Assembly: GCA_937863865.1 (NCBI GenBank)
Contig: CALMHE010000189.1
Location: 1-35,186, forward strand
Direction of reading: 5' to 3'
From: an uncultured Anaerolineaceae bacterium
GTDB lineage: Bacteria; Chloroflexota; Anaerolineae; Anaerolineales; Anaerolineaceae
DNA length: 35,186 nt
The notes under the pieces were generated by a model that was given only the letters and a program-made list of their open reading frames with translations, was not told the DNA's origin and searched no databases. How positions within the stretch are numbered: position 1 is the stretch's first letter; each line of letters opens with the position of its first letter. A program made the translations under genes and the position numbers. This document shows, piece by piece, positions 7,516 to 27,261 of the stretch.

Positions 7516-7543
7516 TTGGTTATTTTCTATTATTGAATACAAT
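7516..7543 (+). promoter_or_regulatory. Putative promoter of HEAT-repeat gene
   Basis: TTGGTT (7516-7521) and TACAAT (7538-7543) are 16 nt apart; the start codon at 7581 follows 37 nt later. Confidence 0.5.
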
Positions 7544-7580
7544 AGGTATGACATCAATCATCAGATTTAAGGAGGGTTCC

Positions 7581-8213
7581 ATGACCATTCTGAAACAGGT
7601 CTCTTCAGCCCTGGGGGAGCGTTCCGGGGAGGCGAACCGCCGGGTGGCGGAACTTTGCCTGGCTCAACCCGACCTGCTGGCGGAGGTGGCGGTGGGACTG
7701 ACCTCCAAAAATGCCGCCCTGGCGGGGGACTGCGCCGAAGTGATGACCATGACCGCCGGGGTAAAGCCGGAACGGGTGGCTCCATTTGCCGCCGCTTTGC
7801 TGGATGTCCTGGCGCATAAAACCACCCGCGTTCGCTGGGAAGCCATGCATGCCCTGGCATATTCCGCAGCCTGCGCTCCAGCATTGATGGCGGCATCCCT
7901 GCCGCGCCTGGCTGAAATATTCCGGACGGACAACAGCATCATCGTCCGGGATTACGCTGTGGATGCAATCGGTAATTATGCCGGAACCGGGCAGGAAGCT
8001 GCCGAAAAGGCGTATCCGCTGTTGAAGGAAGCGCTGACCCTGTGGGAAGGCAGGCAGGCGGGGCATGCCCTGCAAGGTTTGATCCATGTGGCTGCCGCGG
8101 CGCCCCGCCTGGGGGCTGAAATTCGCGAAGCCGCAATCCCATTTCTGGAAAATCCCAAGGGCGTTGTCCGGAAAACCGCCCGGGCATTAATCAAGTCCAT
8201 CGATGCTGGATGA
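7581..8213 (+). CDS. HEAT-repeat protein
   Basis: The start at 7581 is chosen because AAGGAGGG stands 4-11 nt before it; upstream in-frame starts lie inside the promoter. The 210-residue product is nearly all alpha-helical and Ala/Leu rich, with repeated pairs such as RVRWEAMHALAY and IIVRDYAVDAIGNYA and a final VVRKTARALIKSI, the signature of HEAT repeats (about five to six). Such proteins are binding scaffolds and have no activity of their own. No signal peptide. It precedes the ADP-ribosylglycohydrolase gene by 78 nt on the same strand, so it may share its transcript. Confidence 0.8.
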   Translation: MTILKQVSSALGERSGEANRRVAELCLAQPDLLAEVAVGLTSKNAALAGDCAEVMTMTAGVKPERVAPFAAALLDVLAHKTTRVRWEAMHALAYSAACAPALMAASLPRLAEIFRTDNSIIVRDYAVDAIGNYAGTGQEAAEKAYPLLKEALTLWEGRQAGHALQGLIHVAAAAPRLGAEIREAAIPFLENPKGVVRKTARALIKSIDAG

Positions 8214-8291
8214 GAAATTAGTTTACCGGTCTCAATCACCATCAACGTTTCATCGTGCCAATCAGTTTTTGGTCATAGGAGGACTGCAGAT

Positions 8292-9071
8292 ATGCTCGGA
8301 GCCATAGCCGGTGATATTATTGGTTCGATTTATGAGTGGAATCCCAATAAGACGAAGGATTTTCCACTGTTCCAGGAGGACAGCCAGTTTACGGATGACA
8401 GCGTGCTGACGGTGGCGGTTGCAAATGCCATTTTGAAGGGTGATTCCTACGAGGAATCCGTGCGGCGGTTTGGTCTGAAACATTCCTACGCCGGGTTTGG
8501 CGGGTCGTTTAAAAATTGGCTGCATTCCGTCAACCCGCAGCCGTACAACAGTTGGGGCAACGGCTCGGCAATGCGCGTCAGCCCGGTGGGATTTGCATTC
8601 TCCACTGAGGAGGAAGTGTTGAAACAGGCGGAAATGAGCGCCGCTTTCACCCACAACCATCCCGAGGGCATCAAGGGCGCCCAGTCAACTGCGCTGGCTG
8701 TCTTCCTGGCGCGCACGGGGCACACCAAAGAGGAGATCCGTGCCCGGATTACCGCTGAATTTGGCTACAACCTGGAACGAACCCTGGATGAAATCCGCCC
8801 GGGTTACTCATTTGATGTCTCTTGCCAGGGTACGGTGCCGGAGGCGGTCATTGCCTTCCTGGAATCCATATCCTATGAGGATGCGGTGCGCAATGCCATT
8901 TCGCTGGGAGGCGACAGCGATACGCTGGCGTGCATCACCGGCGGCATTGCCGAGGCGTTTTACGGCGGGGTGCCGCTGGAGATCCGGCAGGAAGCCCTGC
9001 AGCGCCTGACTTATGACCTGCGCCAGGTTGTGGAGGATTTTTATCAAAAAATCATGCCGGGAATGGGGTGA
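8292..9071 (+). CDS. ADP-ribosylglycohydrolase family protein
   Basis: 259 residues, normal length for the DraG/ARH family. The metal-binding motifs are present: GAIAGDIIGS at the N-terminus, FTDDSVLT (the T-D-D triad) near residue 33, and GGDSDTLACITGGIAEA near residue 207 (the D-S-D-T metal motif). The family removes ADP-ribose from proteins or small molecules in the cytoplasm, using two Mg or Mn ions. AGGAGG lies 9 nt before the ATG. No ADP-ribosyltransferase or nitrogenase gene is in the window, so the partner is unknown; the HEAT-repeat gene immediately before it could encode a scaffold. Confidence 0.92.
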   Translation: MLGAIAGDIIGSIYEWNPNKTKDFPLFQEDSQFTDDSVLTVAVANAILKGDSYEESVRRFGLKHSYAGFGGSFKNWLHSVNPQPYNSWGNGSAMRVSPVGFAFSTEEEVLKQAEMSAAFTHNHPEGIKGAQSTALAVFLARTGHTKEEIRARITAEFGYNLERTLDEIRPGYSFDVSCQGTVPEAVIAFLESISYEDAVRNAISLGGDSDTLACITGGIAEAFYGGVPLEIRQEALQRLTYDLRQVVEDFYQKIMPGMG

Positions 9072-9159
9072 TCAGCCACCAGACATGAGGCGGCGGCATG
9101 CCCGTCCCGGCAGCGGCATCAGGACCGTGCAGGCTGATATTCCCCCCGCATCCAACTCA

Positions 9160-10515
9160 TTACGGCTTGCGGCGGATGATGCGATTTTTGCTGGCTGATT
9201 GGGGCGCCGGACGATACGATGGCGCCAGGATGGCATGAATCGTACACAGCCGCGTATCGTGCATGCGGCTGCGGATGCGCGGATCAATTTCCTCCAGAGT
9301 TGCCGCTGTGGTGATCACCAGCGGCAGGCGGGCATTGTAGCGGTAATTGAAAATCTGATAGAGCTTTTCACGCGCCCAGGGTGTGGCGGACTGCGTCCCG
9401 AGGTCATCGAGGATGAGGAGTGGTGTGCCGCGCACTTCATCAAACAGCCGGTCGTAGGTTGTCCGGCTGGCGGGGCTGAAGGTGGAGCGTAAATGATCCA
9501 GCAGGTCGGGGACAACCACAAAGAGGGGTTCCTCGCCCAAACCGGCGCGGTAATTGCCAACCGCCGCCGCCAAATGGGTCTTGCCGCAGCCGTAACCGCC
9601 CATCAGGACCAGCCAACCGGCGGGGTTTTCAGCATACGCCTGCGCCGCCCGGAATGCCCTGACCAGGCTGATCTGCTCGTCCTCGGGGAGTTTTTCACGC
9701 TCCCGCAGGCTGAAGTTGCCAAACGTGCGGTCATTCAACAGATGCAACGCCGACAACCCGCCGATTGATTCCTCTGCGGCTGCCGGCGCCCGGTAATCCG
9801 GTGCATGGATGGCAACCAGCTGCACCAGGTCGGGATTTTGAATGCGTGAAGCAATCCTGCCGTCCATTTCATCCAGGCTGCTGTTGGAGGTCACCACGGT
9901 GGGCAGCCGGTGCAGGGAGCGGTAGTCAATGATCTGAAAGAGCTTTTCCTGCGCCCAGGGAGTGGCATTCTGGGTGCCCAGGTCATCCAGCACCAGCAGT
10001 TGAATGCTGCGAATCTCCTCGAAACGCTCCTCGAAAGTCACCTCGGGATCCTGGTAGGCATAGCGCAGCCAGTCCAGCAGGTCGGGGACGGTGAGGAAGA
10101 TGGTGGGGGTGCCGGCGGCGACCACCTCATGTGCCACGGCGGCTGCCAGGTGCGTCTTGCCGCAGCCGTAACCGCCCATCAGAACCAGCCAGCCTTGCGG
10201 TGCCCGGGCGTAGGCTTGCGCCAGGTTAAGCGCCTGCTTGAGGGATTCAACCTGTCTGTCGCCCAAACCGCCGCGCCCTTCCACGCGGAAGGTATCGAAT
10301 CGAAACTGCTCAAAGGCTTCCAGGTTGCTCAGGTTGTAAAGACGCCGGCTGGCTGCCTGCTCATATTCCTCCTGTCGGCAGGTGCAGACCTGCAATTTGC
10401 CAAAGCGCGGGTCATCCAGGGGAACATCCAGCCGCACAAACCCAACATCATTGCAGATGGGGCATCTGGGCTGGCTGGCGGCGGCTGACGACTCAGTGTT
10501 CGATGATTTCACCAT
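9160..10515 (-). CDS. Double-module DnaC/DnaI-type AAA+ helicase loader
   Basis: The start is set at 10515 (GAGGGAG just upstream), which overlaps the DnaD-like gene by 23 bp; the longer frame to 10695 would run deep into that gene. The 451-residue product has an N-terminal zinc-finger pattern (C18, C21, C44, C46) as in DnaC/DnaI-like proteins. Two complete AAA+ modules follow. Module 1 has Walker A GGYGCGKT (114-121), Walker B LLVLDDLG (173-180) and R220/R224. Module 2 has the identical Walker A (306-313), LLILDDLG (366-373) and R413/R417 in matching positions. Ordinary loaders are about 250-330 residues with one module. It should load DnaB, encoded two genes upstream in the same operon, and may act as a built-in dimer. 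Confidence 0.88.
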   Translation of the reverse strand: MVKSSNTESSAAASQPRCPICNDVGFVRLDVPLDDPRFGKLQVCTCRQEEYEQAASRRLYNLSNLEAFEQFRFDTFRVEGRGGLGDRQVESLKQALNLAQAYARAPQGWLVLMGGYGCGKTHLAAAVAHEVVAAGTPTIFLTVPDLLDWLRYAYQDPEVTFEERFEEIRSIQLLVLDDLGTQNATPWAQEKLFQIIDYRSLHRLPTVVTSNSSLDEMDGRIASRIQNPDLVQLVAIHAPDYRAPAAAEESIGGLSALHLLNDRTFGNFSLREREKLPEDEQISLVRAFRAAQAYAENPAGWLVLMGGYGCGKTHLAAAVGNYRAGLGEEPLFVVVPDLLDHLRSTFSPASRTTYDRLFDEVRGTPLLILDDLGTQSATPWAREKLYQIFNYRYNARLPLVITTAATLEEIDPRIRSRMHDTRLCTIHAILAPSYRPAPQSASKNRIIRRKP

Positions 10516-11182
10516 ATTCTCCCTCGACATAGCGGCGCCGATTTTTTTCAGACTGTCCTGGATATCCATCCTGGCTGCCTCTCTCCATCCGTCTCCGCAG
10601 GATGGCTTCCACGTAACGCCACGAACGGGCGTTGGCTTGAACCGCCTGACGGATCGCATCCTCAATCCAGGCGGGGGGGTAGGTCTGCTCGGCATCCCGC
10701 AGGATGTCAGCCATCAGGGGAGTGAGCGGACCGATATTTTCCTCATACAGGCGGAAGATGTTGGGGCGCTCCAGTTCCAGCCGGATTTCGGGGTGGTTCT
10801 GATCCTCCGGCTGCCAGACGCCTTTGAGCAGCCCCTGGTATGCCGCCCTGCCGCGGGGGGTGTTAATGAAATAAATTATATCCCCGTCTTCGCCTGCGGC
10901 TGGTTTTGCATAAAGCAGGGTTCCCCGCTTTACCGCCCGTTCCAGCGCATCCGCCAGTTGACCGGCTCCGCCCGGGAGGCTGTCAACCAGGTGGGGATCT
11001 TCCGCAAAGTCCCGCCCCACCAGGTAGCGCAGCCTGCCTTCCTGGCGGCTGAGGTGCCAGAAGGCGTACAGGGTGACCTTCAACTCACCCAGGTCATCCA
11101 CCTGGGGCAGCAATTCAGCAAAGAATGCCTCAGGCAGGGGAGTGGTTTTGGTTTTGGAGGAGCTGAACCCGGCAAATGACAT
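10493..11182 (-). CDS. DnaD-like replication initiation protein
   Basis: 229 residues. The C-terminal part (about 145-200), with FRLYEENIGPLTPLMADIL and then WIEDAIRQAV and SWRYVEAILRR, is the DnaD/DnaB2 domain found in Firmicute primosome proteins and phage replication proteins. The N-terminal half looks like a winged helix (LKVTLYAFWHLSRQEGRLRYL). The tail is basic and then acidic. Its AGGAGG ribosome site overlaps the dnaB stop codon, and its 3' end overlaps the AAA+ loader gene, so it sits in a tight DnaB-DnaD-DnaC set. It probably bridges the origin and the loader. Confidence 0.85.
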   Translation of the reverse strand: MSFAGFSSSKTKTTPLPEAFFAELLPQVDDLGELKVTLYAFWHLSRQEGRLRYLVGRDFAEDPHLVDSLPGGAGQLADALERAVKRGTLLYAKPAAGEDGDIIYFINTPRGRAAYQGLLKGVWQPEDQNHPEIRLELERPNIFRLYEENIGPLTPLMADILRDAEQTYPPAWIEDAIRQAVQANARSWRYVEAILRRRMERGSQDGYPGQSEKNRRRYVEGEYGEIIEH

Positions 11183-11190
11183 CCCGCCTC

Positions 11191-12585
11191 CTAGCGCCGT
11201 CGTTTTTTGGCTGGGGGTTCCGGCTGGACTGAATGGATCTCGGCATTGTCGAACCGCGCCAGGTTGTTGCGGAATACCACCTCAATCCCGGGGTGGGTTG
11301 GACCATTGCGGTGTTTGGCTACGATGAGTTCTGCCAGATTATGGCGCGGGCTGGTCGGATCCATGGCATCGGGGCGGTGAATGAACATCACAATGTCAGC
11401 ATCCTGCTCGAGGCTTCCGCTTTCCCGCAGATCGGAAAGGACGGGTTTCTTGTCGGTGCGCTGTTCCACTGCACGCGACAGCTGGGCGGCAGCCAGGACC
11501 GGCACCTTCAATTCACGCGCCAGGGTTTTCAGGTTGCGGGAGATGTACGAGACTTCCTGGACACGGTTTTCATTGCGCACATCCCCCGACATGAGCTGCA
11601 GGTAATCGACAATCACCAGGTCCAGGCTGTGTTCCAGGTCCAGCCGGCGGCACTTGGTGCGCAGCTGCATGGGGGTCAGGGCGGGGGTGTCATCCAGCCA
11701 GATTTTGGTATCCCCCAGCACCTCGATGGCGTGCACGAAGAGCGGCCATTCATCCTCTTTCAACTTGCCGGTGCGCATGCGCTGGGTATCGATGCCGGTT
11801 TCCTGGGCAATCAGACGCTGGACAAGCTGCTCGTTGGACATTTCCAGCGAGAAGATTGCCACATGTTTTTTATGGATTTGAGCGGCATTCTTTGCCACTG
11901 AAAGCAAAAAACCGGTCTTTCCCATGCCCGGGCGACCCGCCACGATCAGCAGGTCGGATTTTTGCAGACCGCCCAGCACCTTGTCCAGATCCAACAAGCC
12001 GGTTGGGACGCCGAAAATTTCTTCATCGCGCTGCGAAAGCTGGTCAACCTGGTCGTAATAGGCGCTGATTACAGCATCAATGGGCTTGATGTCGCGCTGC
12101 ATCTGGTCTTCCTTGAGGCTGAAGATGGATTTCTCCGGCTCGCCGATGCTCGTATCCAGCGACTGATCGCGGGTGTGTGCCAGGCGCGCCAGATTGTTGG
12201 CTGCGGTGAGCATGCGGCGCCGAACTGACATTTCCTTGACCACCCGCCCGTACGAAACCGCGTACATGGCGGAGGGGGTCTGGTTGATGAGCGAGAGCAG
12301 GTATGCCCCGCCGCCAATCTCATCCAGCTGGCTTTGCTGGTCCAGCTCCTGGACCACCAGCACAAAGTCAGGCGGCTGACGTTTTTCCTGCAGCCGGACA
12401 ATTGCCTCCCAGATCCAGCGGTTGCGGATGATGTAAAAATCATCCCCGTTCAGAAATTCCGCCAGGTCGTAATACACCTCGCGGTTGATCAGAACCGAGC
12501 CCAGCACTGCCTCTTCAGCCTCGCGGCTGTGGGGGAGCTGCTGAATTTCACCAGGGGTATCGTCGTAGGGGGGGAGATCACTCAT
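11191..12585 (-). CDS. dnaB: Replicative DNA helicase DnaB
   Basis: 464 residues, standard length. The N-terminal domain starts LPHSREAEEAVLGSVL, the usual DnaB opening. The linker ends at FGVPTGLLDLDKVLGGL, then come Walker A GRPGMGKT (217-224), a Walker B region ending LVIVDYLQLM, SRNLKTLARELKVPVLAAAQLSR, and SDLRESGSLEQDADIVMFIHR, all family signatures. The helicase is a hexamer that unwinds DNA at the fork. It overlaps the DUF151 gene upstream by ATGA and its stop overlaps the next gene's ribosome site. The Gly at position 220 replaces the more common Ser of GRPSMGKT; this is not expected to matter. Confidence 0.97.
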   Translation of the reverse strand: MSDLPPYDDTPGEIQQLPHSREAEEAVLGSVLINREVYYDLAEFLNGDDFYIIRNRWIWEAIVRLQEKRQPPDFVLVVQELDQQSQLDEIGGGAYLLSLINQTPSAMYAVSYGRVVKEMSVRRRMLTAANNLARLAHTRDQSLDTSIGEPEKSIFSLKEDQMQRDIKPIDAVISAYYDQVDQLSQRDEEIFGVPTGLLDLDKVLGGLQKSDLLIVAGRPGMGKTGFLLSVAKNAAQIHKKHVAIFSLEMSNEQLVQRLIAQETGIDTQRMRTGKLKEDEWPLFVHAIEVLGDTKIWLDDTPALTPMQLRTKCRRLDLEHSLDLVIVDYLQLMSGDVRNENRVQEVSYISRNLKTLARELKVPVLAAAQLSRAVEQRTDKKPVLSDLRESGSLEQDADIVMFIHRPDAMDPTSPRHNLAELIVAKHRNGPTHPGIEVVFRNNLARFDNAEIHSVQPEPPAKKRRR

Positions 12586-13157
12586 TGTTTTTGATCGGGT
12601 TCTTCAGGCGGTTCTTCATCATCCCCGGATTGATCATCCGGGAGGTTAAAATCCAGGTCCTTGAGGAAATCCTCGAATACGGAGAGCCGGCTACTGGTAT
12701 CGTCGGGTTCCTCACCCTGTAGGGGTGCCAGAAGCGCCCCTTCCTGCTGGACTTCCTCCTCGGGGATGAGACCGGCGGTATTCATCACATCATCAGCCAC
12801 CAGGATGGGGATATGGACGCGGGCGGCAAGCGCCAGTGCATCGGACGGGCGGGAATCAATGCGCACCTCGTGGCCATTCACCTCCAGCACCAGCACGCCG
12901 AAGAAGACATCCTCCTGCAGCGCCACCACCTCCACCCGTACCAGCCGGGCATCGAGCTGTTTGATGATGTTTTTCACCAGGTCGTGGGTCTGCGGGCGGG
13001 CTACTTCAATTTCCTGCATGGCAATTGTGATCGCTTCCGCCTCGAATGGTCCAATCCAGATGGGCAGATAGCGCTCCTTGTTCACCTCGCGCAGCACAAC
13101 AATCCGCTGCTGGTTGGTCAGACTCACGCGAATGCTGTCAATCACAACTTCGATCAT
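12582..13157 (-). CDS. DUF151 (bifunctional nuclease domain) protein with acidic tail
   Basis: 191 residues. Residues 1-130 form the DUF151/BFN domain: LPIWIGPFEAEAI, ARPQTHDL, RIDSRPSDALALAARVHIPI are its conserved parts. Members have been linked to nuclease activity in plants, but bacterial roles are poorly known. From about 130 the protein turns highly acidic (many Asp and Glu, ending DQKQ), possibly a protein-interaction tail. GGAGG lies 8 nt before the ATG. The stop overlaps dnaB by ATGA, so the protein is made together with the helicase. A small upstream ORF overlaps its start in the same way. Confidence 0.9.
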   Translation of the reverse strand: MIEVVIDSIRVSLTNQQRIVVLREVNKERYLPIWIGPFEAEAITIAMQEIEVARPQTHDLVKNIIKQLDARLVRVEVVALQEDVFFGVLVLEVNGHEVRIDSRPSDALALAARVHIPILVADDVMNTAGLIPEEEVQQEGALLAPLQGEEPDDTSSRLSVFEDFLKDLDFNLPDDQSGDDEEPPEEPDQKQ

Positions 13158-13264
13158 GTTCGCATCCTCCGCAGGCGTGATTGCGCCTGTGAAAACATTC
13201 TAACACGCCCAGGGATGGGATGCAACCGAACCAACCGCCGGGCTGTGATTTTTAATATTAACAT
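13154..13264 (-). CDS. Small basic ORF (36 aa) leading the dnaB operon
   Basis: The ATG at 13264 has a perfect AGGAGG 8 nt upstream, one of the best ribosome sites in the window, and the stop TGA overlaps the DUF151 start by ATGA. The peptide starts MLILKITARRLVRLHPIPGR and ends RRMRT; about a quarter of the residues are Arg, with a hydrophobic first few residues. I know no homologue. Translation of it would feed ribosomes into the DUF151 gene, so it may act as a leader peptide or be a real small protein. The two signals together are unlikely by chance, though composition alone does not prove it. Confidence 0.5.
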   Translation of the reverse strand: MLILKITARRLVRLHPIPGRVRMFSQAQSRLRRMRT

Positions 13265-13313
13265 ATATTTTTCCTCCTGTTTATCAATCTTAACAAAAGC
13301 CCTGGATTTGCCC

Positions 13314-13340
13314 TTGCATTTTTTAAGTTTAAGGTATAAT
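13314..13340 (+). promoter_or_regulatory. Putative promoter of response-regulator gene
   Basis: TTGCAT (13314-13319) and a perfect TATAAT (13335-13340) are 15 nt apart. It implies a leader RNA of about 135 nt, which includes a 10-codon ORF starting at ATG 13380. Confidence 0.5.
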
Positions 13341-13482
13341 GAGTGCACTTTGAATGTCCGGATGAATGGACTGAATACTATGTTGCAGGCATTGACAGGT
13401 CGGTCCCTTTGACGACTTCTCAAAAAAGGGGCAACGAGTGAGATCGAGTGCCCTGCAAAGATAATTACAGGAAAAGATTAAC

Positions 13483-14151
13483 GTGACACCATCAAGGGCG
13501 AAAATTCTTCTCATCGAAGGAAAGCGATCGGAGAGACCTTCATTGCTGGCGCCATTGACAAAAAAAGGCTTTTTGGTTGAATCAGTTCCCAACGGCAGCG
13601 CGGCACTGGCCCGGCTGGGCGAAACCCACCCCGACTTGATTGTGGTGGATGCTGCCTCCATGCGGACCAGCAGCAAGCGCATCTGCCAGTCGCTGCGCGC
13701 CAATGCCCCGCGCACCCCCCTGGTGCTGATCCTGGATGAGGGCGGCAATATGGACGAAAAGGTCAATGTCAATGTCGTCTTGCACCTGCCGTTCACCCCG
13801 CAGAAATTGATCAACCGGATCAAGCATTTGCTGCCTGCCGAGCACAAGGACATCCTGCAGGTGGGTCCGCTTCAACTGAATGTCCAGCAGCGCTGGGTGA
13901 AATGCGGCGAGCGCCAGTCCCGGCTGACACCCCGGCTGGTGATTTTGCTGAAGATGTTAATGGAACACCCCGGAGAGATGATCCAGCGGGAGACGATCTT
14001 TAAACAAGTCTGGGAGACGAATTATGCCGGGGACATGCGCACTCTGGATGTGCACATCAGCTGGCTGCGCCGGGCAATTGAGGAGGATCCATCCCATCCG
14101 CGCTATATCAAGACCCTGCGCGGAATGGGCTACCGGCTGGATGTGCAATAA
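13483..14151 (+). CDS. Atypical response regulator, OmpR-type winged helix
   Basis: A GTG start with AGGA about 10 nt before it gives 222 residues. The C-terminal half (about 128-222) is a complete OmpR/PhoB winged helix: LTPRLVILLKMLMEHPGEMI, then VWETNY, TLDVHISWLRRAIEEDP and the wing RYIKTLRGMGYRL. The N-terminal receiver is degenerate. KILLIEGK replaces the usual V-D-D acidic pocket (only E12 is left), D56 occupies the phospho-acceptor position, and the conserved Lys of KPF is Leu (LPF, 102-104). It is therefore probably regulated without normal phosphorylation. No histidine kinase is adjacent. It is divergent from the dnaB operon. Confidence 0.88.
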   Translation: MTPSRAKILLIEGKRSERPSLLAPLTKKGFLVESVPNGSAALARLGETHPDLIVVDAASMRTSSKRICQSLRANAPRTPLVLILDEGGNMDEKVNVNVVLHLPFTPQKLINRIKHLLPAEHKDILQVGPLQLNVQQRWVKCGERQSRLTPRLVILLKMLMEHPGEMIQRETIFKQVWETNYAGDMRTLDVHISWLRRAIEEDPSHPRYIKTLRGMGYRLDVQ

Positions 14152-14210
14152 AAAGGGTGGACACACCGGTCCGTCGCTGGGATATTACAAAGATATCGAA
14201 ATCAACCCTG

Positions 14211-14241
14211 CAGGGGCGCACACCAGGCGCCCCTGATTTAT
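14211..14241 (+). terminator. Terminator after response-regulator gene
   Basis: CAGGGGCGC (14211-14219) and GCGCCCCTG (14227-14235) form a 9-bp stem with a 7-nt loop, followed by ATTTATTTA. Confidence 0.75.
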
Positions 14242-14253
14242 TTACATAAACAA

Positions 14254-14283
14254 AACAGGACGGAAGATTTCTTCCGTCCTGTT
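14254..14283 (-). terminator. Terminator of the decarboxylase operon
   Basis: A perfect 14-bp inverted repeat (AACAGGACGGAAGA at 14254-14267 and its complement at 14270-14283) with a 2-nt centre. On the minus strand it is followed by TTTGTTTATG, so it serves the gene ending at 14302. Confidence 0.8.
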
Positions 14284-14301
14284 GCTGTTCTAAATCATGA
14301 A

Positions 14302-15453
14302 TTAACCCCAGCCCAAACCACGCACCAGCGCCAACAGCAGACCGCCGGCAATCACACTGCCCAACTGACCCGCCGTGTTGGAGCCCATGGCGTGCATCAG
14401 GATGAAATTCTCAAAATCCTCGTCCTGTGCCATTTTGGCGGACAGCCTGCCTGCCATCGGGAAGGCGCTGATGCCGCATGCCCCGATCAGCGGGTTGATC
14501 TTCCAGCCCGAGAGGACGCACATCAGCTTGCCAAACAGCAGTCCGGCGATGGTATCAATCACGAACGCCAGCAAACCCAGACCCAAAATCATCAGCGTCT
14601 GGAACTGGAAGCCGGTCTCGGGGCTGTAGAGGAAGCTTGCCGCCGTCATGGTCGAGCCGATTGCCAGCCCGAGGAAGAGGGTTGAGATGTTGATGATCTC
14701 ATTCTGCACCGCCTTGTTCAGCCGGTCCACCACACCCGATTCCTTGATCAGGTTGCCAAGCATCAACGAAGCGATGAGGGGGGCGGCATCCGGGGCAATC
14801 AGGCTGATCAACACCGTCACCAGGATGGGGAAGAGCACCACACCCAGCCGGGAGACTTCCCGCGGGGCGTAATCCATGCGCACCAGGCGTTCCTTGCGGC
14901 TGGTCATCAGCTTCATGATTGGAGGCTGGATGATGGGGATGAGGCTCATGTACGAATACGCCGCCACCGCCACCGGTCCCAGCATGTGGGGCGCCAACTG
15001 CGAGGTGACGAAGATGGCGGTCGGTCCGTCAATGGCACCGATGATGCCGATGGAAGCGGCTTCCTTCATTTCAAAGCCCAGCAGAACCGCCAGGAGGAGG
15101 GTGCCGTAAATGCCAAACTGACCCGCCGCGCCCAGCAGCACCAGCTTGGGCTGTGCCAGCAGCGGTCGGAAATCAATCATGGCGCCCACGCCCACGAAGA
15201 TCAACAGCGGGAAGAGTTCGGTTTTAATACCCGCCTCATAAATCCAGTACATCCAGCCGCCTTCCACGTAAGCCGACATGCCAAGGTTGGCAAAGATGCA
15301 GCCCACGCCAATCGGCAGGAGCAGGACGGGTTCAATTTCCTTTGCCACCGCCAGGTACACCAGCACGCAGCCCAGCGCAATCATCACGCCGTTTGCCCAC
15401 GTGAACTCGGTGATACCCTTGGTGAGATATACAATTACCTGGGAGAGGTCCAT
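14302..15453 (-). CDS. Sodium-pumping decarboxylase beta subunit
   Basis: 383 residues, normal length for OadB/MmdB/GcdB. About ten membrane segments and the family signatures are present: FPLLIFVGVGAMIDFRPLLA, ASIGIIGAIDGPTAIFVTS, YSYMSLIPIIQPPIMKL and a C-terminal NFILMHAMGSNTAGQLGSVIAGG. The beta subunit removes CO2 from carboxybiotin and pumps Na+ out of the cell. The biotin carrier gene precedes it by 12 nt. Which acyl substrate (oxaloacetate, methylmalonyl-CoA, glutaconyl-CoA) cannot be told, because the carboxyltransferase gene is missing beyond the chimeric junction. The ATG has CGGAG 7 nt upstream. Confidence 0.95.
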   Translation of the reverse strand: MDLSQVIVYLTKGITEFTWANGVMIALGCVLVYLAVAKEIEPVLLLPIGVGCIFANLGMSAYVEGGWMYWIYEAGIKTELFPLLIFVGVGAMIDFRPLLAQPKLVLLGAAGQFGIYGTLLLAVLLGFEMKEAASIGIIGAIDGPTAIFVTSQLAPHMLGPVAVAAYSYMSLIPIIQPPIMKLMTSRKERLVRMDYAPREVSRLGVVLFPILVTVLISLIAPDAAPLIASLMLGNLIKESGVVDRLNKAVQNEIINISTLFLGLAIGSTMTAASFLYSPETGFQFQTLMILGLGLLAFVIDTIAGLLFGKLMCVLSGWKINPLIGACGISAFPMAGRLSAKMAQDEDFENFILMHAMGSNTAGQLGSVIAGGLLLALVRGLGWG

Positions 15454-15465
15454 ATGCCCGCTCCG

Positions 15466-15755
15466 TTATTCCGTGAACTCAACCAACGCCTGACCATGTT
15501 TGACGTGATCGCCCACCGCCACCAGGACGGCAGCCACCACGCCATCGCGGTTGGCGCGGATGGCATTTTTCATCTTCATGGCTTCCAGGGTCAGCAACTC
15601 CTGACCGGGTTTGACGGCATCGCCGGGCTTGACGGCAATGGCAACAATCACGCCAGGGATGGGTGCGGGCACCGCTTTGGCGGAGCTGACCGGTGCAGCT
15701 GCCGGAGCCTGGACTTTGAGCGCCGCGGGTGCTGCAGGTGCAGCCGGCGCAGCTG
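15466..15755 (-). CDS. Biotin carrier subunit of decarboxylase (N-terminus cut at chimeric junction)
   Basis: The frame ending in TAA at 15466 encodes an Ala/Pro-rich linker and then a biotinyl domain of about 68 residues: PAPIPGVIVAIAVKPGDAV, LLTLEAMKMKNAIRA (the biotinylated Lys is in the EAMKM motif) and GQALVEFTE. It is the gamma/biotin carrier protein of the decarboxylase whose beta subunit follows. Upstream of about 15755 the same frame continues only as an out-of-frame reading of unrelated glycosyltransferase DNA, so the true start lies on the lost Chloroflexota DNA. Confidence 0.9.
15741..15755. other. Probable chimeric junction between two genomes
   Basis: To the left, the minus strand reads as biotin carrier linker (PAAPAAP); to the right, in another frame, as a DUF2064 glycosyltransferase (SHTGLSQLRRL). 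Both readings pass through the same 15 bases and both genes are cut there. Gene style changes at this point: strong SD sites and AT-rich spacers on the left, G/C third positions and GTG or leaderless starts on the right. There are no repeats, integrase or target duplication. Confidence 0.85.
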
Positions 15756-16235
15756 GGAAAGCCCGGTGTGCGAGACGCTCATCGGCACGCCGTCGAACAA
15801 GTCGTGTGCCAGATCCACACTGGCGGCACACAGACCGATCATCCAGTAGCCACCATCGGTGGCCAACCCGATGGTGTCGACTCCCCGGTGCGCGGCGGCG
15901 ATGGCATCGGCCAACGCGGCACCCACGTGTGGGGTCTCCATGCCGACGATCACACCTGGGCCGAGATCTTGGAAGCCGTTGCGCAAGCGTTCCTCCAGCC
16001 CATCGCCCCGCTGCGCCACGACGTCGAACGTCGCCGGCATCCACGACTGAGGCTCGCCGTCGAGCAGCAGCACTCGGCGTGCCCCGGTGAGATCCGCCAC
16101 GGCTTCGACCGCCAGCAGCGAGTCGAACAGCGCCGCGCCGGCCACACGCGCTGCTTGCTCCGCGGTGCACGGCGGGCACAACCGAGTCTTCACCTGGCCG
16201 GCAACCGGGGCTTTGGCGATGACGGTGACGTGCAT
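15741..16235 (-). CDS. DUF2064 glycosyltransferase-like protein (C-terminus cut at junction)
   Basis: Starting at ATG 16235, the product begins MHVTVIAKAPVAGQVKTRLCPP, the opening of the DUF2064/TIGR04282 family, a GT-A fold related to nucleotidyl- and glycosyltransferases. A GLATDGGYWMIGL segment and FDGVPMSVSHTG are also family features. The family normally goes on after SHTG...QLRRL with another 25-40 residues; here the reading changes into the carrier-protein linker, so the C-terminus is lost. It starts 3 nt after the stop of a GT2 gene, and the two genes are found together in many actinobacteria (recalled, not checked). Confidence 0.85.
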
Positions 16236-16238
16236 CGG

Positions 16239-16895
16239 TCAGCGATCCTCGTTGGCGCGCAACAGGCTGCCCATGTCGCGCACGGCGCCGATGGTGCCGC
16301 GCACCGTTCCCGTGACCTTCGAGCGGCCCTCGCGCTCGCGGTACTCGACGGGCACGTTGCGCACTCGCCACCCCGCTCCCTGAGCTCGAAGGACCATCTC
16401 CAACGGCCATCCGGAACGACGGTCGCGCAGGCCCAACGCCAGCAACCCTTCGCGGCGAGCCGCGCGCATGGGCCCGATGTCGGACAGGCGCAGGCCGGTA
16501 CGCCGGCGCACCTCCATTGCCAGCACTCGATTCGCCACCCGCGCATGCACCGGCCAGGCGCCGCGGCCGGCGATGCGCGCACCGAGCACGAGATCGGCTT
16601 CGTCGCGCAGCACGTAGCCGGCAACCAGCGGCAGCGCCAATGGGTCGAGCGAGGCATCGCAATCCATGAAGCAGACGATGTCGTCGGTCGCGGCTTGCAG
16701 GCCTGCCCAACAGGCCGAGCCGAAGCCGCGCACCGGTTCGCTGATCACGGTGGCACCCAGCTCGGCGGCGATGGCAGCGGTATGGTCGGTCGACCCGTTG
16801 TCCACCACGATGGCGCGGTAGCCGGCCGGCATCCGTCGCAGCACCCACGCCACGGCGGCCGCCTCGTTGAGCGCTGGAAGGATGACATCAGGCAT
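16239..16895 (-). CDS. Family 2 glycosyltransferase
   Basis: The start is the ATG at 16895, giving MPDVILPALNEAAAVAWVL, the standard GT2 opening; a longer frame would read through a tandem repeat. The 218-residue product has the nucleotide-sugar pocket VVDNGSTDHTAAIA, the metal-binding CFMDCDASLDP, and a RRSGWPLEMVLRA / NVPVEYREREGRSKVTG segment of the GT2 acceptor side. It acts on the inner membrane face and most likely moves a sugar to a lipid carrier. The DUF2064 gene follows 3 nt downstream as a likely partner. Confidence 0.92.
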   Translation of the reverse strand: MPDVILPALNEAAAVAWVLRRMPAGYRAIVVDNGSTDHTAAIAAELGATVISEPVRGFGSACWAGLQAATDDIVCFMDCDASLDPLALPLVAGYVLRDEADLVLGARIAGRGAWPVHARVANRVLAMEVRRRTGLRLSDIGPMRAARREGLLALGLRDRRSGWPLEMVLRAQGAGWRVRNVPVEYREREGRSKVTGTVRGTIGAVRDMGSLLRANEDR

Positions 16896-16927
16896 TGCGA
16901 ACCTCACACATCGACGACGCAACCATT

Positions 16928-16987
16928 GAAGACGACGAACCTGAAGACGACGAACCTGAAGACGACGAACCTGGGGACGACGAACCT
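16928..16987. repeat. 15-bp tandem repeat, four units
   Basis: GAAGACGACGAACCT occurs three times head to tail (16928, 16943, 16958), then once with GGG in place of GAA (16973), and a broken fifth copy follows. In one plus frame it reads EDDEP repeats that stop at a TGA near 17015. It lies between the divergent GT2 and epimerase genes, and no gene start fits it. Confidence 0.9.
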
Positions 16988-17013
16988 GGGGACAGCACCG
17001 TGAGCACCGCACC

Positions 17014-18141
17014 GTGAGCACTACACCGCGCACCGGCACGAGCAAGGTGTTGGTCACCGGCGGCGCCGGCTTCATCGGCTCGCACATCGTGGATGAGCTG
17101 ATCGCGTTGGGCCACGAGGTGGTGGTGGTCGACGACCTCGACCCGGCGGCTCATCAGGGCATGCCGGCGGGGCTGAACCCACTCGCTCACTACGTGTGGC
17201 ACGACGTGCGCGACCAGACGGTGTGGCCCACGCTGCTGCGCGGCGTGGATGCCGTGTGCCACCAGGCCGCCAAGGTGGGCCTGGGTGTCGACTTCGCCGA
17301 CGTCGCCGCCTACGTGAGCCGAAACGACCTGGGCACGGCGGTGCTCCTGCACGCGCTGCACGACATCGCCTTCGCCGGTCGGCTGGTGCTGGCCTCGAGC
17401 ATGGTGGTGTACGGCGAGGGACGGTACCGATGCCCCGAGCACGGCGTGGTGCGGCCCGGGCCGCGCCTGCAAGCCCACCTGGAGGCGGGCCAATACGAGC
17501 CGCCGTGCCCAGCATGCGGCGGACAGCTGATTGCCGAGGCCGTGCCGGAGGACCACTGGCTCGACCCGCGCAACGTGTACGCCACCACCAAGCTGGCGCA
17601 GGAGGGACTGTGCACGGCCTACGAACGCGAGCACCCCGGCAGCACCGTGACTGCACTGCGCTACCACAACGTGTACGGCCCGCGCATGCCACGCGACACC
17701 CCATACGCGGGCGTGGCCAGCCTGTTCCGCAGCTCGTACGAACGCGGTGAAGGCCCGCGCGTGTTCGAGGACGGCGGGCAACGACGCGACTTCGTCCATG
17801 TGTCGGATGTCGCGCACGCGAACGTGTTGGCGCTCACCAACGAGCAACCGGCTGCCGGCGCGTTCAACGTGTGCTCCGGCACCCCGCGCACGATCCTCGA
17901 CATGGCGGGAGCGCTGCGACCCGACGGAGCACCGGCGCCACGCGTCGTGGGCGGCTATCGCCTCGGCGACATCCGCCACGTGTTCGCCAACCCAGAGCGC
18001 GCAGCTGCCCGTCTGGGCTTTCGCGCAGCTGTCACGTTCGAGGACGGCATGCGCCAGTTCGCCACCGGCGCGCTGCGCAGTGTCGCCGGGCCTCGGCCCG
18101 ACGAACTGACCCGCGGCACCATGACCGCACGTGCCGACTGA
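17014..18141 (+). CDS. NAD-dependent sugar epimerase/dehydratase (extended SDR)
   Basis: A GTG start gives 375 residues. VTGGAGFIGSHIVDEL is the NAD-binding Rossmann motif, ASSMVVYGEG carries the active-site Ser, and Y189-x3-K193 (YATTK) is the catalytic pair. RYHNVYGPRM and RRDFVHVSDVA are also typical. An unusual insert between the Ser strand and the YxxxK helix holds CPEH (140-143) and CPACG (165-169), which looks like a small zinc knuckle of CxxH/CxxC type. Substrate is probably a nucleotide sugar for the cell envelope, in line with the glycosyltransferases alongside. Confidence 0.9.
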   Translation: MSTTPRTGTSKVLVTGGAGFIGSHIVDELIALGHEVVVVDDLDPAAHQGMPAGLNPLAHYVWHDVRDQTVWPTLLRGVDAVCHQAAKVGLGVDFADVAAYVSRNDLGTAVLLHALHDIAFAGRLVLASSMVVYGEGRYRCPEHGVVRPGPRLQAHLEAGQYEPPCPACGGQLIAEAVPEDHWLDPRNVYATTKLAQEGLCTAYEREHPGSTVTALRYHNVYGPRMPRDTPYAGVASLFRSSYERGEGPRVFEDGGQRRDFVHVSDVAHANVLALTNEQPAAGAFNVCSGTPRTILDMAGALRPDGAPAPRVVGGYRLGDIRHVFANPERAAARLGFRAAVTFEDGMRQFATGALRSVAGPRPDELTRGTMTARAD

Positions 18142-18166
18142 GAGCCGGTTCACCACGTCGACACCG

Positions 18167-19498
18167 TCACCACTTCGACACCAGGGCGGCCTGCAGCACG
18201 ATTGCACACGTCGCCTGCACGGCGACGGCACCAGCGCCCGACCACCGACGCCGACGGGAGACCAGCGCCGCCCCGGCGAGGGCGAGCCATGGGTAGAAGA
18301 TCAACCAGATTCGCTCGACCTCGCCCTTCGTGTAGGTGGACAGGTGCGATGCGGTGAGCGCAACTGTTGCTCCACCCACCAGCAACCACATCCGCCGACT
18401 GCGCAGCGTGCCCATGCCCAGCACGGTCACCGGGCCCAGCGCGAACAGTGCGGCGCCGAGGTTGCCGATCGCGAAGTAGCTCCACCGACGAAAGCCGGCG
18501 GAGCCCGCGTGGTACTGCTCTCGGGTCGCATCCACGCCATCGAGCCACCAGAAGCCGGCGATCCAGAACGCGGCCACCACCGCAAGACCGGCAGCGACGC
18601 CGGCCATCACCACCAACCAGGCGCCACGCTCGCGTCGCACCAGCGCCGCCAGCAGCAGCACCGCAGGAATCACGAGCAGCATCGCGCCGAGATACGTGAG
18701 GAACAAGAGGCATCCCAGCAGCAGGCCGGCCGCAATGCCGAACCACGCTGCACGCGTCCCATCGCGGTTCGCTCCTTCCGCGACCAGCGCAACGCCGAGC
18801 GCTCCGACCGCCGCGAACACAGCATCGCCCGACGTCACCATCCACACCGCATACGGCGCGACGATCAGCAATGGCGCCGCCCGACGCATCCATTCGTCGC
18901 CTGCGACCGCCCGCACGGTGAGAAGCACCGCGACCGCCGTTGCACCGGTTGCCAGCAACGACAAGCCCACCACCGGCCACACGCCGTGCAGGCCGACTGC
19001 CTCGAGGAACTTGAGCACGAGCACGAACCCCGGCGGATGGCCACGCACGTGAACCGAGTAGCGATCGAGCTGCTCGACGAAGGTGCGTACGAACTCGCCG
19101 GCGGGTGGAGCCGTGCTCAGGTTTGCCCAGTACTCCGTGGGGTGCTCGGCGCCGTAGCGCAAACCGTCGGCCCCGTCGGTCAATGCCAGCAGCGCCGCGA
19201 ACAACGCAGCACCGACGCCTGTCGCGAGCAGCACCCATCGTTGACGCGCCCGCCACCACCACCCGAGCCGGCAGCTGATCGCCAGCGCGGCCGCCAGCAC
19301 GCCGGCACCGACCAGGCCCCAGCCGAAGCGCCACACCCAACCGTCGATCTCATCGCGCCCCACCAGTGGTGCGGCACCGAGGTTGACGCGGGTGTTGGTT
19401 CGCTGCTCGGCCCGACCCTCGACCATGCTCCACCACACCACGGCGGCGCCGGTAGCGAGCAACGCGGCCGGCAGCAGCCGACGACGCCAGCGGGTCAT
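18167..19498 (-). CDS. GT-C-like polytopic membrane glycosyltransferase
   Basis: 443 residues with about ten to twelve membrane segments. After the second or third segment comes a long loop with EHPTEYWANLSTAPP and then VHVRGHPPGFVLVL, the H-P-P-G loop pattern seen in GT39/ArnT/DUF2029-type mannosyl- or arabinosyltransferases. A late loop STYTKGEVERIWLIFYPW is also characteristic of this class in actinobacteria. It would use a polyprenyl-phosphate sugar at the outer membrane face. It overlaps the DoxX-like gene by ATGA, so the two are co-translated, and it converges with the epimerase gene. Confidence 0.75.
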   Translation of the reverse strand: MTRWRRRLLPAALLATGAAVVWWSMVEGRAEQRTNTRVNLGAAPLVGRDEIDGWVWRFGWGLVGAGVLAAALAISCRLGWWWRARQRWVLLATGVGAALFAALLALTDGADGLRYGAEHPTEYWANLSTAPPAGEFVRTFVEQLDRYSVHVRGHPPGFVLVLKFLEAVGLHGVWPVVGLSLLATGATAVAVLLTVRAVAGDEWMRRAAPLLIVAPYAVWMVTSGDAVFAAVGALGVALVAEGANRDGTRAAWFGIAAGLLLGCLLFLTYLGAMLLVIPAVLLLAALVRRERGAWLVVMAGVAAGLAVVAAFWIAGFWWLDGVDATREQYHAGSAGFRRWSYFAIGNLGAALFALGPVTVLGMGTLRSRRMWLLVGGATVALTASHLSTYTKGEVERIWLIFYPWLALAGAALVSRRRRWSGAGAVAVQATCAIVLQAALVSKW

Positions 19499-20472
19499 TC
19501 AGCCAACGTTGCGGCAACCGGCGAGTGGCTCGCCGCTGCTGCGTCGACCTGCACCGAGCCGGCACCCAGCACGCGCCGGGCGAACAACGCCGACGCCACT
19601 GCAAGGCCACCCCAGAACGCCATGTTGGTGCCTGTCGATACCTTCTGCACCGCGCCATCGTCGCGCATGTAGTCGAACGTCTGCTGGAAGAGGACGGCGA
19701 CGGCGAGAGCGGCGAAGCCTGCCGCAGCCACGTATGCCAGCACGGCCTTGCGGCTGCCCGCGATGAGCAGCACCCCGCAGGCGACGGTGAGCAGCGCCCA
19801 CAGCGGGTTGAAGAACAGGAACTTCAGCTCCCACCGTCGGGTGACGCCACCGTCCGCGTTGGCGAACCCGGCATCGCTGCCCAGCAGCGCGGCCGCCTTG
19901 CCGGTGAAGTCGATCGAGCGCGCCACGAACAGCCCGAGCGCCCCGACCACGACGGCCACGATGCCGGTGGAACGCATCGCTCGGCCGGATCGCGCGGGCG
20001 CGCCGGCGAGCACCCCGTCGACGCCGAGATGATCGCCCGACGGCACCGCCCACAACAACAGGTGCAGCCCGATCATGAGCAGGTACGACCAGGCCCACTC
20101 GTCGGCCCTCGGGTAGTAGAGCACCGAGAGACCGATCGGCACCGCCATCGCGGCACCGGCGAGCGCGACGAGGCGCGAGCGGTACCCGATGAGCAGCAGG
20201 GCGGCAACCACCGCCTCGCTGATGAGCGTGAACCAGCCGAAGAGCTGGAAGTTGGGCAGCACCAGCTCGCGCAGCGCCCATCGATACGGCGCGAGTGGAG
20301 CGTTGTCGGCACCTGCCGCAACGTACTTGTAGAGGCCCCCGCCGTTGGCCTCGCCGAAGTCGGTGGGCACCTTCCAGTGCAGGTTGGCCAACCACATCAA
20401 CCCCGCGAGGATGCGCACGCCGCCGATGGTGAAACCCTGCGCCCTCACCACCATCTCTGCACGAGTCGTCAT
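19495..20472 (-). CDS. DoxX-like membrane protein
   Basis: The start is placed at ATG 20472 (MTTRAEMVVRAQG); an ATG 33 nt further out is possible. About 325 residues. The N-terminal part, IGGVRILAGLMWLANLHWKVPTDFG, followed by helices with FGWFTLISEAVVAALLLIGYRSRLVALAGA and SVLYYPRADEWAWSYLLMIGLHLLL, is the DoxX/DoxD four-helix domain linked to thiosulfate:quinone oxidoreductases and to poorly defined membrane redox complexes. A second hydrophobic part (about 170-325) adds three or four helices. The gene start is 103 bp from the divergent rhodanese-fusion gene, so both may serve sulfur or redox metabolism, which is only a suggestion. Confidence 0.75.
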   Translation of the reverse strand: MTTRAEMVVRAQGFTIGGVRILAGLMWLANLHWKVPTDFGEANGGGLYKYVAAGADNAPLAPYRWALRELVLPNFQLFGWFTLISEAVVAALLLIGYRSRLVALAGAAMAVPIGLSVLYYPRADEWAWSYLLMIGLHLLLWAVPSGDHLGVDGVLAGAPARSGRAMRSTGIVAVVVGALGLFVARSIDFTGKAAALLGSDAGFANADGGVTRRWELKFLFFNPLWALLTVACGVLLIAGSRKAVLAYVAAAGFAALAVAVLFQQTFDYMRDDGAVQKVSTGTNMAFWGGLAVASALFARRVLGAGSVQVDAAAASHSPVAATLAE

Positions 20473-20575
20473 GGCGATCAGCATTGCAGCGCGCTTCGCG
20501 TGCACCGCTCAGTTTCGGGAAAGTTTCGTGCTTCCCAATCGCCGCCGACGCGGATGCCACCTACCATCCTGGGCC

Positions 20576-21445
20576 ATGGAAGGACCGGCAACCTGGGGCA
20601 AACGGGATCAGGGCGGGTTGCAGGCGGCGATCGACGAGCTACCCACGTTCCTGAGCGCGACCGTGTTGCACCTCGGGCATGACGACCCATCGCTGCTTGC
20701 CATGCTCACCGGTGAACACAGCTGCGTTGCACACGTGTCGGAGGCGGAGGTCATCAACCTCCAGATGGAGCGTCGGTACGACCTGGTCGTCATCGGCACA
20801 ACCCTCCTCGCGAGCGACGACGGGCATCGGCGCGCGGTCATGCATGCAGCGATGCAGCACGTCGACCGCGGCGGTCACCTGGTCATCATCCACCAGCACA
20901 CCCAACCCGCGCTCGGCGACGGGTTTCGAGCCGACGATCTGCACCTGCTCGGCTGCTATCCGGTCGGCACCATGCACTTGTCGCTGTATCGACGCGGCGA
21001 CCGCCTCACCGTGCACGATCTGCTGTTCGAAGCACGCGCGACGATTCGCCGCCTCACGGCCAACCAACTGCACGACCGAATGCAGTCGGCCGATCCTCCG
21101 CTGGTGCTCGACACGCGCACGCACACCGACCGCGGGCGCTTCGGTGTCATCCCGGGCTCGGTGCACGTGCCGCGCACAGTGGTCGAGTGGCATCTCGATC
21201 CGGCCAACGGCTACTTGCACCCGGAGATGCGATCGTTCGACCAAGCGCTCGTGCTGGTGTGCAACGGTGGGTACAGCTCGTCACTGGCCGCCGCCAACCT
21301 CGTGCGCATCGGGTTCACCGATGTCGCCGACCTGATCGGTGGGCACACCGCCTGGTGCACCACCGGGCTGCCCGTCGTTCGCGCCGACCACTCGCATCTC
21401 GACACGCCTGCGTTCGACGAAATGAGCGTCAAGTACGAGCGATGA
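20576..21445 (+). CDS. Methyltransferase-like / rhodanese fusion protein
   Basis: The start ATG at 20576 (MEGPATWGKRDQGG) gives 289 residues; upstream frame extensions lie inside the divergent promoter region. Residues about 20-150 look like a class I methyltransferase fold: VLHLGHDDPSLLAML stands where the SAM motif I should be but lacks the G-x-G pattern, followed by RRYDLVVIGTTLL and GGHLVIIHQHTQ. From about 170 it is a rhodanese domain: PLVLDTRTHTDRGRFGVIPGSVHVPR, VLVCNGGYSSSLAA with the active-site Cys, and DVADLIGGHTAW. Expected role is persulfide chemistry. Its last 17 bp overlap the end of the MTA phosphorylase gene on the other strand. Confidence 0.8.
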   Translation: MEGPATWGKRDQGGLQAAIDELPTFLSATVLHLGHDDPSLLAMLTGEHSCVAHVSEAEVINLQMERRYDLVVIGTTLLASDDGHRRAVMHAAMQHVDRGGHLVIIHQHTQPALGDGFRADDLHLLGCYPVGTMHLSLYRRGDRLTVHDLLFEARATIRRLTANQLHDRMQSADPPLVLDTRTHTDRGRFGVIPGSVHVPRTVVEWHLDPANGYLHPEMRSFDQALVLVCNGGYSSSLAAANLVRIGFTDVADLIGGHTAWCTTGLPVVRADHSHLDTPAFDEMSVKYER

Positions 21446-22268
21446 GCTCGTCGTACGAGTGCTGCACCGCATGCACGATCAGCTCGCGAACACGAGCGAC
21501 GTTGGCGTGCATCATCGCGAAGACGGCCTCCATCGTGACCGGCTCGTGGCCGTCGACGCCGGCGTCGTAGTCGGTGACCAGCGCCACCGACGCGTAGCGA
21601 ATGCCGAGCTCGGCTGCGAGTACGGCCTCCGGGTAGCCGGTCATGTTCACGACGTGCCACCCCATCGAACGGAACCATTCGCTCTCCGCGCGCGTGGAGA
21701 AGCGGGGGCCGTTGATCACCACCATCGTGCCGCCATCCACCACGTCGGCCCCGGTACGCCGACCGGCCAGCACCAAGTTGGCGCGCAACACTGGGTCGTA
21801 GGGGTCGGCGAAGCTCTGGTGGTGCACGGGGCCGCCGGTGCCGGGTTCGCCGGCCGGGCCGCCCACGTCGTGAAAGGTGTCGGGACGACCCCAGGTGCGA
21901 TCCACCACCTGATCGATCACCAGCAACTGGCCAGGATGGATGTCGGGCTGCAAGGAGCCCACCGAGCAGGGAGTGACGATCGAACGAACGCCCATCGAGT
22001 GCATCGCCCACAGGTTGGCCCGGTAGGGCACGCGGTGCGCGGCGAACTGGTGCTGGCGGCCGTGCCGCGCCATGAACGCCACGCGATTCCCTGCAACCGA
22101 GCCGACGACGACCGGCCCTGCCGGCCAGCCGTACGGGGTGTCGACCACATGCTCCTCGGCATCGTCGAGGAACTCGTAGAAGCCCGACCCGCCGAACACC
22201 CCCAACGGCACGCCCGGTGCGCCCGTCGCAGTCTCCGTCGGTTGATCTGTCGGTTGCGTTGCGGTCAT
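21429..22268 (-). CDS. mtnP: S-methyl-5'-thioadenosine phosphorylase
   Basis: 279 residues from the ATG at 22268. LGVFGGSGFYEFLDD is the phosphate-loop opening of the PNP/MTAP family, followed by ARHGRQHQFAAHRVPYRANLWAM and INGPRFSTRAESEWFRSMG. The base-specificity loop VALVTDYDAGVDG has Asp where MTAP uses Asp to bind adenine (PNP has Asn), so MTA rather than inosine is the expected substrate. It splits MTA into adenine and methylthioribose-1-phosphate in methionine salvage. The first 20 residues are a Thr/Pro-rich extension. The gene tail overlaps the rhodanese-fusion gene tail by 17 bp, so antisense interference is possible. Confidence 0.93.
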   Translation of the reverse strand: MTATQPTDQPTETATGAPGVPLGVFGGSGFYEFLDDAEEHVVDTPYGWPAGPVVVGSVAGNRVAFMARHGRQHQFAAHRVPYRANLWAMHSMGVRSIVTPCSVGSLQPDIHPGQLLVIDQVVDRTWGRPDTFHDVGGPAGEPGTGGPVHHQSFADPYDPVLRANLVLAGRRTGADVVDGGTMVVINGPRFSTRAESEWFRSMGWHVVNMTGYPEAVLAAELGIRYASVALVTDYDAGVDGHEPVTMEAVFAMMHANVARVRELIVHAVQHSYDELIART

Positions 22269-22296
22269 CGTGCGTTCATAGCACGACGAACGGTCG

Positions 22297-22302
22297 TACA
22301 GT
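22297..22302 (+). promoter_or_regulatory. Putative -10 box before the hexosaminidase leader ORF
   Basis: TACAGT stands 7 nt before the ATG at 22310, so the transcript would be leaderless or nearly so. No clear -35 is visible. Confidence 0.35.
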
Positions 22303-22309
22303 CGCGGCG

Positions 22310-22360
22310 ATGGCAACCGCGGCAGCGAAGGCACCCAGCACGTTCCTGGTGGCTGTGTGA
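22310..22360 (+). CDS. Possible 16-aa leader ORF coupled to the hexosaminidase
   Basis: The ATG at 22310 lies 7 nt after a -10-like box and reads 16 codons (MATAAAKAPSTFLVAV) to a TGA that overlaps the GTG start of the hexosaminidase gene by the sequence GTGA. This is a typical translational-coupling overlap. The hexosaminidase GTG itself has no ribosome site, so ribosomes from the leader could supply it. The peptide may have no function of its own. Confidence 0.35.
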   Translation: MATAAAKAPSTFLVAV

Positions 22361-23808
22361 GCGAGCCTGAGCACCGCGTCGTGCCGCTGCCGTCGTCGTT
22401 CGAGCTGCGCGAAGGGTCGTTGCCGATCACCGCCCTCACCCGCATCGTGATCGCCGACGAGCACGAGCACGACCACCAGCACGACCAGACGGTGAACCAC
22501 CTCATCGGCGACGTGCAGCGAGCCACGGGGATACACCTGGCCCGCACCGCGACGGCTGCGGCCGGCGACATCGAGCTGCGTCTGGACGGCGACCCCGGCC
22601 AGCTCGGGCCGGAGGGCTACGCGCTCGACATCGACGAACAGGGTGCAACCGTGCGCGCCGCCACTCCGCATGGCGTGTGGAACGGCACGCGCACGCTGGT
22701 GCAGTTGCTCCCGCACACGCCCGTCGACACGTCGCTGCCGTTCGCGCACATCCTCGATCGACCGCGCTACGAGTGGCGGGGGGTGATGCTCGATGTGGCA
22801 CGGCACTTCTTCGGTGTCGACCAAGTGCTGCGCTTCATCGAGCTGATCGCTCGCTGCAAGTTGAACCGGCTACATCTGCACCTCACCGACGACCAAGGGT
22901 GGCGCATCGCCATCGACGGGTGGCCAGCGCTCACCGGCGTCGGCGGCAGCTCCGGCGTGAGCGGCAGCGCCGGGGGCTACTTCACCCGCGCCGACTATGC
23001 GGAGATCGTCGCCCATGCCGCTCGTCACTTCATCACGGTGGTTCCCGAGCTCGACATGCCCGGCCACACCAACGCCGCGCTCGCCTCGATACCGGGGCTG
23101 AACCTCGATGGCATCGCACCTCCCGCCTACACCGGCAAGGGCGTCGGCTTCAGCTCGTTGCGCCTGGCGGCACCGGCGACCCGCCGGTTCATCAGCGATG
23201 TGATCGGGCAGTTGGCGGCCGACACACCCGGCCACTACCTGCACATCGGCGGCGACGAAGCGCATGCCACCGACCATGCGGAGTATCGCCAGTTGGTCGA
23301 ACTGCTGCAGCACGAGGTGCGGCGCCACCACAAGCAGATGGTCGGCTGGGAGGAGATCGCCAACGCCGATCTCGCCGCCGGCTCGATCGTGCAGCACTGG
23401 CTGCAGCCCGCCGTGGCACGCCGCGCGCCTCCAGACTCACGATTCGTGATGTCGCCGGCGGCGCACACATACCTCGACATGAAGCACACCCCGCAGTGCA
23501 CGCTCGGGCGCCGATGGGCGGGCTTCATCGACGTGGACACCGCCTACGACTGGGACCCCGCCACCCTGATCGACGGCATCGGCGACGACCGCATCGCCGG
23601 TGTCGAGGCGCCGTTGTGGACGGAGAAGGTGGCCACCTTCGACGACGTGCAGCACCTCTGCTTCCCTCGGCTGGCATGCCTGGGGGAAGTGGGGTGGACC
23701 CCGCAGCACCTGCGCAACTGGTCAGGCTTCCGGCCGCGACTGGCCGTGCACGCGGACAGGCTCGCCGCGATCGGGGTACCCCTGTACCGATCGGCGTTGC
23801 TCGACTGA
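22357..23808 (+). CDS. Beta-N-acetylhexosaminidase, GH20
   Basis: 483 residues from the GTG at 22357. The N-terminal GH20b-type domain (about 1-130) ends in GVWNGTRTLVQLL. The catalytic barrel begins RPRYEWRGVMLDVARHFF and contains LNRLHLHLTDDQGWRI, VVPELDMPGHTNAA and HIGGDEAH with D300-E301, the catalytic pair of GH20 (Glu acts as acid, Asp positions the acetamido group). VGWEEI and GVEAPLWTEKV complete the pocket. No signal peptide is seen, so it should be cytoplasmic and would act on imported amino-sugar oligomers or on recycled wall material, removing terminal N-acetylglucosamine. Confidence 0.95.
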   Translation: MSEPEHRVVPLPSSFELREGSLPITALTRIVIADEHEHDHQHDQTVNHLIGDVQRATGIHLARTATAAAGDIELRLDGDPGQLGPEGYALDIDEQGATVRAATPHGVWNGTRTLVQLLPHTPVDTSLPFAHILDRPRYEWRGVMLDVARHFFGVDQVLRFIELIARCKLNRLHLHLTDDQGWRIAIDGWPALTGVGGSSGVSGSAGGYFTRADYAEIVAHAARHFITVVPELDMPGHTNAALASIPGLNLDGIAPPAYTGKGVGFSSLRLAAPATRRFISDVIGQLAADTPGHYLHIGGDEAHATDHAEYRQLVELLQHEVRRHHKQMVGWEEIANADLAAGSIVQHWLQPAVARRAPPDSRFVMSPAAHTYLDMKHTPQCTLGRRWAGFIDVDTAYDWDPATLIDGIGDDRIAGVEAPLWTEKVATFDDVQHLCFPRLACLGEVGWTPQHLRNWSGFRPRLAVHADRLAAIGVPLYRSALLD

Positions 23809-23870
23809 GCCCGAGTTCGCGTACCGTAGGCAGCTGCGAGCAGCTGGAACGAGCGCCACAGGAGAACGAA

Positions 23871-24774: not shown

Positions 24775-27261
<2,487 letters not shown>

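Follow-up and report, generated by a model that had tools for sequence, protein, structure and literature searches.

The window, that is, the whole stretch of DNA analysed here, is a complete contig of 35,186 bases from a MAG of 2.54 Mb, which consists of 537 contigs and is 86.9% complete and 7.2% contaminated. Two truncated genes meet near its middle, and the features on which the analysis is based are as follows.

1-35186, contig C189, 35,186 bases, identical to the window
1-15737, no strand assigned, DNA of the bin's own lineage (family f1), with genus and family matches, GC 0.57
14302-15453, minus strand, Na+-transporting oxaloacetate decarboxylase beta subunit (OAD-beta; PF03977, E=1e-143), native to the bin's family
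15466-15756, minus strand, biotin carrier protein (BCCP; PF00364), C-terminal part only, N-terminal part missing
15738-15756 (at most 15735-15757), no strand assigned, the join, bases compatible with both genomes, minus-strand sequence CCAGCTGCGCCGGCTGCAC
15738-16235, minus strand, DUF2064 protein, start at 16235, C-terminus missing
16239-16895, minus strand, acidimicrobial family 2 glycosyltransferase (GT2; PF00535), adjoining DUF2064
24769-27261, full gene for ClpC, 93% amino acid identity to one MAG (G041)
15738-35186 (contig end), no strand assigned, DNA of an Acidimicrobiia-type actinobacterium, with matches to loci L019, L020 and L022 and to genome G041, GC 0.68

The left part finds its relatives in the bin's own genus and family. 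Over 5500-15684, the same-genus genome (G001) gave long matches at 77-83% nucleotide identity and other genomes of the family mostly 64-79%, and the best matches of 1-5500 were also in G001, at 67-78% and in pieces. Acidimicrobiia genomes matched 5500-15684 only once and briefly (227 bases, in G047). OAD-beta was matched in 26 of 40 relatives (27 of 41 genomes when its own is included), with up to 80% amino acid identity in the family, and it is absent from the same-genus genome, the only one of the genus that was compared.

The right part has its relatives among acidimicrobial genomes. By blastn, 15738-22211 matches L019 in the same order, and L020 and L022 match in pieces; 22498-35133 matches two other contigs (C67 and C96) of G041, the genome of L019, at 75-92% and in pieces. 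GT2 has 87% amino acid identity to this MAG at L019 and 70-82% to further MAGs, and its top matches are all actinobacterial MAGs, many of which are labelled Acidimicrobiia or Ilumatobacteraceae. The same protein reaches 45-47% at best against the bin's order and 35-37% against the bin's family, and ClpC has 45-67% identity to the bin's own Clp proteins in the main matches. Because the matches to L019 and G041 continue up to the contig end and ClpC is so closely related, this part of at least 19.4 kb is ordinary actinobacterial chromosome.

When matches to 11 genomes are laid along the window, they partition at 15.70-15.74 kb, and none of the genomes searched matches both sides, apart from brief hits that conserved genes such as ClpC give on the other side. 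A preliminary description of this DNA, made from the sequence alone, had proposed that two unrelated genomes are joined here inside two truncated genes and that gene style and family content change at the join, and had suggested searching with each half separately and comparing tetranucleotide profiles. The separate searches bear out the proposal, with the left half leading to the bin's genus and family and the right half to acidimicrobial genomes, and so does composition. A single GC change point fits best at 15,650, where GC rises from 0.569 to 0.684 with a log-likelihood gain of 249. Within either half, tetranucleotide profiles correlate at 0.76, and across the two halves at 0.46; the left half correlates at 0.73 with the bin's relatives versus 0.43 with Acidimicrobiia, and the right half at 0.86 with Acidimicrobiia versus 0.58 with the bin's relatives. 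A gene order native to the bin's lineage but divergent, with two genes degraded in place, gains some room from the fact that just one same-genus genome was available for comparison and that it lacks OAD-beta. This reading is contradicted by the partition of matches between the halves, and the right-half proteins, 87-93% identical to an actinobacterial MAG, are far from those of the bin's relatives; we regard it as next to impossible.

Both genes at the join are truncated relative to every close relative read. On the actinobacterial side, nucleotide similarity ends at 15737, 15738 or 15739 in seven genomes, and ungapped identity per block of 20 bases is 13-18 over 15800-15741 and then 5-8 in 15740-15721. 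The DUF2064 protein is aligned over 166 aa, at 76% identity to L019, and reads to SHTGLSQLRRLH (the alignment ends in SQLRRLH), after which homology is lost. Its relatives have 210-211 aa (228 in L021) and continue for 44-45 residues past this motif (62 in one of them), and the window switches there to LQHPRRSKSR. On the other side, the biotin/lipoyl domain, with its stop at 15466 on the minus strand and 77% identity to L005 over the domain, is preceded by its Ala/Pro linker (RAF|PAAPAAPAAP), within which the carrier gene breaks off. The carrier frame from 15756 downward gives PAAPAAPAAP, and the preceding RAF is DUF2064 sequence in the other frame. About 46 N-terminal residues are missing when counted against L005, which extends to its ATG. 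Each of the seven relatives read has, upstream of the biotin carrier, the end of a gene for carboxyltransferase (...HGNMPV or near it).

The join stretch itself gives PAAPAA when read in one frame and QLRRLH when read in the other. The preliminary description was right that these bases can be read in both frames, and its length of 15 bases has to be revised, since homology gives 19 bases (15738-15756) and the widest reading extends to 15735-15757. A 45-mer across the join was absent from the genome collection, from which the contig's own genome was possibly left out, and a 37-mer was absent from IMG/VR. A search of the bin for a second copy of the join 21-mer with up to two mismatches returned only the join itself.

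An ORF of 460 aa (15466-16848, minus strand) remains open across the join by chance, and its Pfam matches are of the biotin/lipoyl type only, at the C-terminus. A real fusion gene was considered for it and rejected, since GT2 and DUF2064, read out of frame, account for its first ~360 residues. The ORF could be mistaken for a new biotin-domain fusion protein.

A rival reading is that at least 19.4 kb of acidimicrobial chromosome entered the bin's bacterium by recent horizontal transfer and inserted into its biotin carrier gene. This reading is favored by the assembly of the contig as one piece and by the bin's own continuation not being found elsewhere in the bin. The preliminary description had reported no integrase, repeat or target duplication at the join, and this holds: no integrase is present among the scanned proteins, no boundary repeat was detected within 15200-16300, no duplication was found, and the window contains neither a tRNA nor an Rfam element. 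Acidimicrobial similarity runs to position 35133 of 35186, and neither a second boundary nor a resumption of the first genome appears before the contig ends, which is as far as this observation reaches. Transfer is further opposed by a cargo of ordinary chromosome, including the full clpC gene, by a single point that cuts both genes, by a right-half composition that has not been ameliorated, and by the observation that no relative carries the right half. The abrupt shift of composition and phylogenetic affinity resembles that of a genomic island acquired by horizontal transfer. Unlike such an island, the contig has no integration machinery, target site or second boundary, two genes are cut at one point, and the cargo is chromosomal and of housekeeping type. 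We therefore hold recent transfer to be very improbable, and the same low probability is given to a genuine transfer of ~19 kb or more by illegitimate recombination at the ~20 shared bases.

Because two source lineages meet in two truncated genes, no mobile element is present and the first genome does not resume, the contig is very probably a chimera of the bin's own bacterium and an unrelated Acidimicrobiia-type actinobacterium, whether it originated in the assembly graph or in the library. The preference of the preliminary description for a chimera over gene transfer is thus upheld. In so fragmented a bin, with 7% contamination, chimeric contigs are to be expected. Two observations count against this reading. 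The missing continuations of both genes, and with them the sequences that rightly belong to the two ends, were not found in the bin: the N-terminus of the BCCP was not found elsewhere in the bin, nor were the carboxyltransferase and the acidimicrobial stretch beyond DUF2064, the latter two in searches run without a positive control. In addition, WhiB, used as a marker for further actinobacterial contigs, was not found in the bin and so gives no sign of broad mixing with the same actinobacterium or of another contig of it.

Under the chimera reading, the bin's bacterium and an actinobacterium from the same sample would have had reads or graph paths joined at a GC-rich stretch of ~20 bases, which reads as the Ala/Pro linker of the one and as the conserved QLRRLH motif of the other and would be identical in both genomes. 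The 19-23 bases of the join come close to the word size or overlap in an assembler graph built with k=21, and we infer that the join arose at a short-k de Bruijn node and not in a chimeric molecule of the library. The two kinds of genome, sampled at 80 kb and 154 kb, have 64 15-mers, 7 17-mers and 2 19-mers in common. Because samples of this size already share such words, scaling suggests that many words near k=21 would be common to the whole genomes, and collisions of ~20 bases would be expected many times. Short microhomology is compatible with template switching as well, and a chimera made during library preparation or amplification, in which one molecule switched template at the shared bases and was then assembled, would fit the join in this respect. 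This sub-case is unlikely, though it deserves some weight: positive evidence for it is lacking, chimeric molecules with exactly this junction would have to be numerous enough to yield a contig, and ~20 bases suit the overlap in a k=21 graph no less well.

Chimeric nodes in metagenome graphs are well described (PMC8171044), and chimeric nodes and contigs are described as a frequent product of metagenome assembly, the more so where a species has low to intermediate coverage (PMC8171044, PMC7881036). As in the interspecies chimeric contigs and de Bruijn chimeric nodes of these reports, of which PMC7881036 is a spike-in study, different species are matched by non-overlapping parts of the present contig, and these parts meet at a short stretch that would be common to both sources. 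The difference is that the sources here are unrelated and would share only ~20 bases, with no long conserved gene. The join is almost certainly an ordinary assembly artefact and not a real biological feature, and it serves as a quality warning. Gene neighbourhoods, operons and transfers should not be inferred across 15,735-15,757, as the preliminary description had advised for this point, and the right part of 19.4 kb should be removed from the bin.

Gene order changes also within each part. In the right part, order departs from that of G041 at 22211-22500, with 15738-22211 matching its contig C7 and 22498-25845 its contig C67. Both sides are acidimicrobial, and the species probably differ here in how their genes are arranged, or possibly there is a second join. 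In the left part, order departs from the relatives at 14151-14302; the counterpart of the DnaB/bifunctional-nuclease block (9.2-14.15 kb) in G022 and G011 lies ~96 kb away from the block of OAD-beta and biotin carrier, or on a different contig. Since both flanking genes look whole, this may be an ordinary rearrangement; it may also be a second join. In the same part, 9160-10695 (minus strand) encodes a protein of 511 aa with two AAA+ regions, the first IstB/DnaC-like and the second DnaA-like, adjoining the replicative helicase DnaB and a protein with a DnaB_2 domain, and it looks like a tandem helicase loader.
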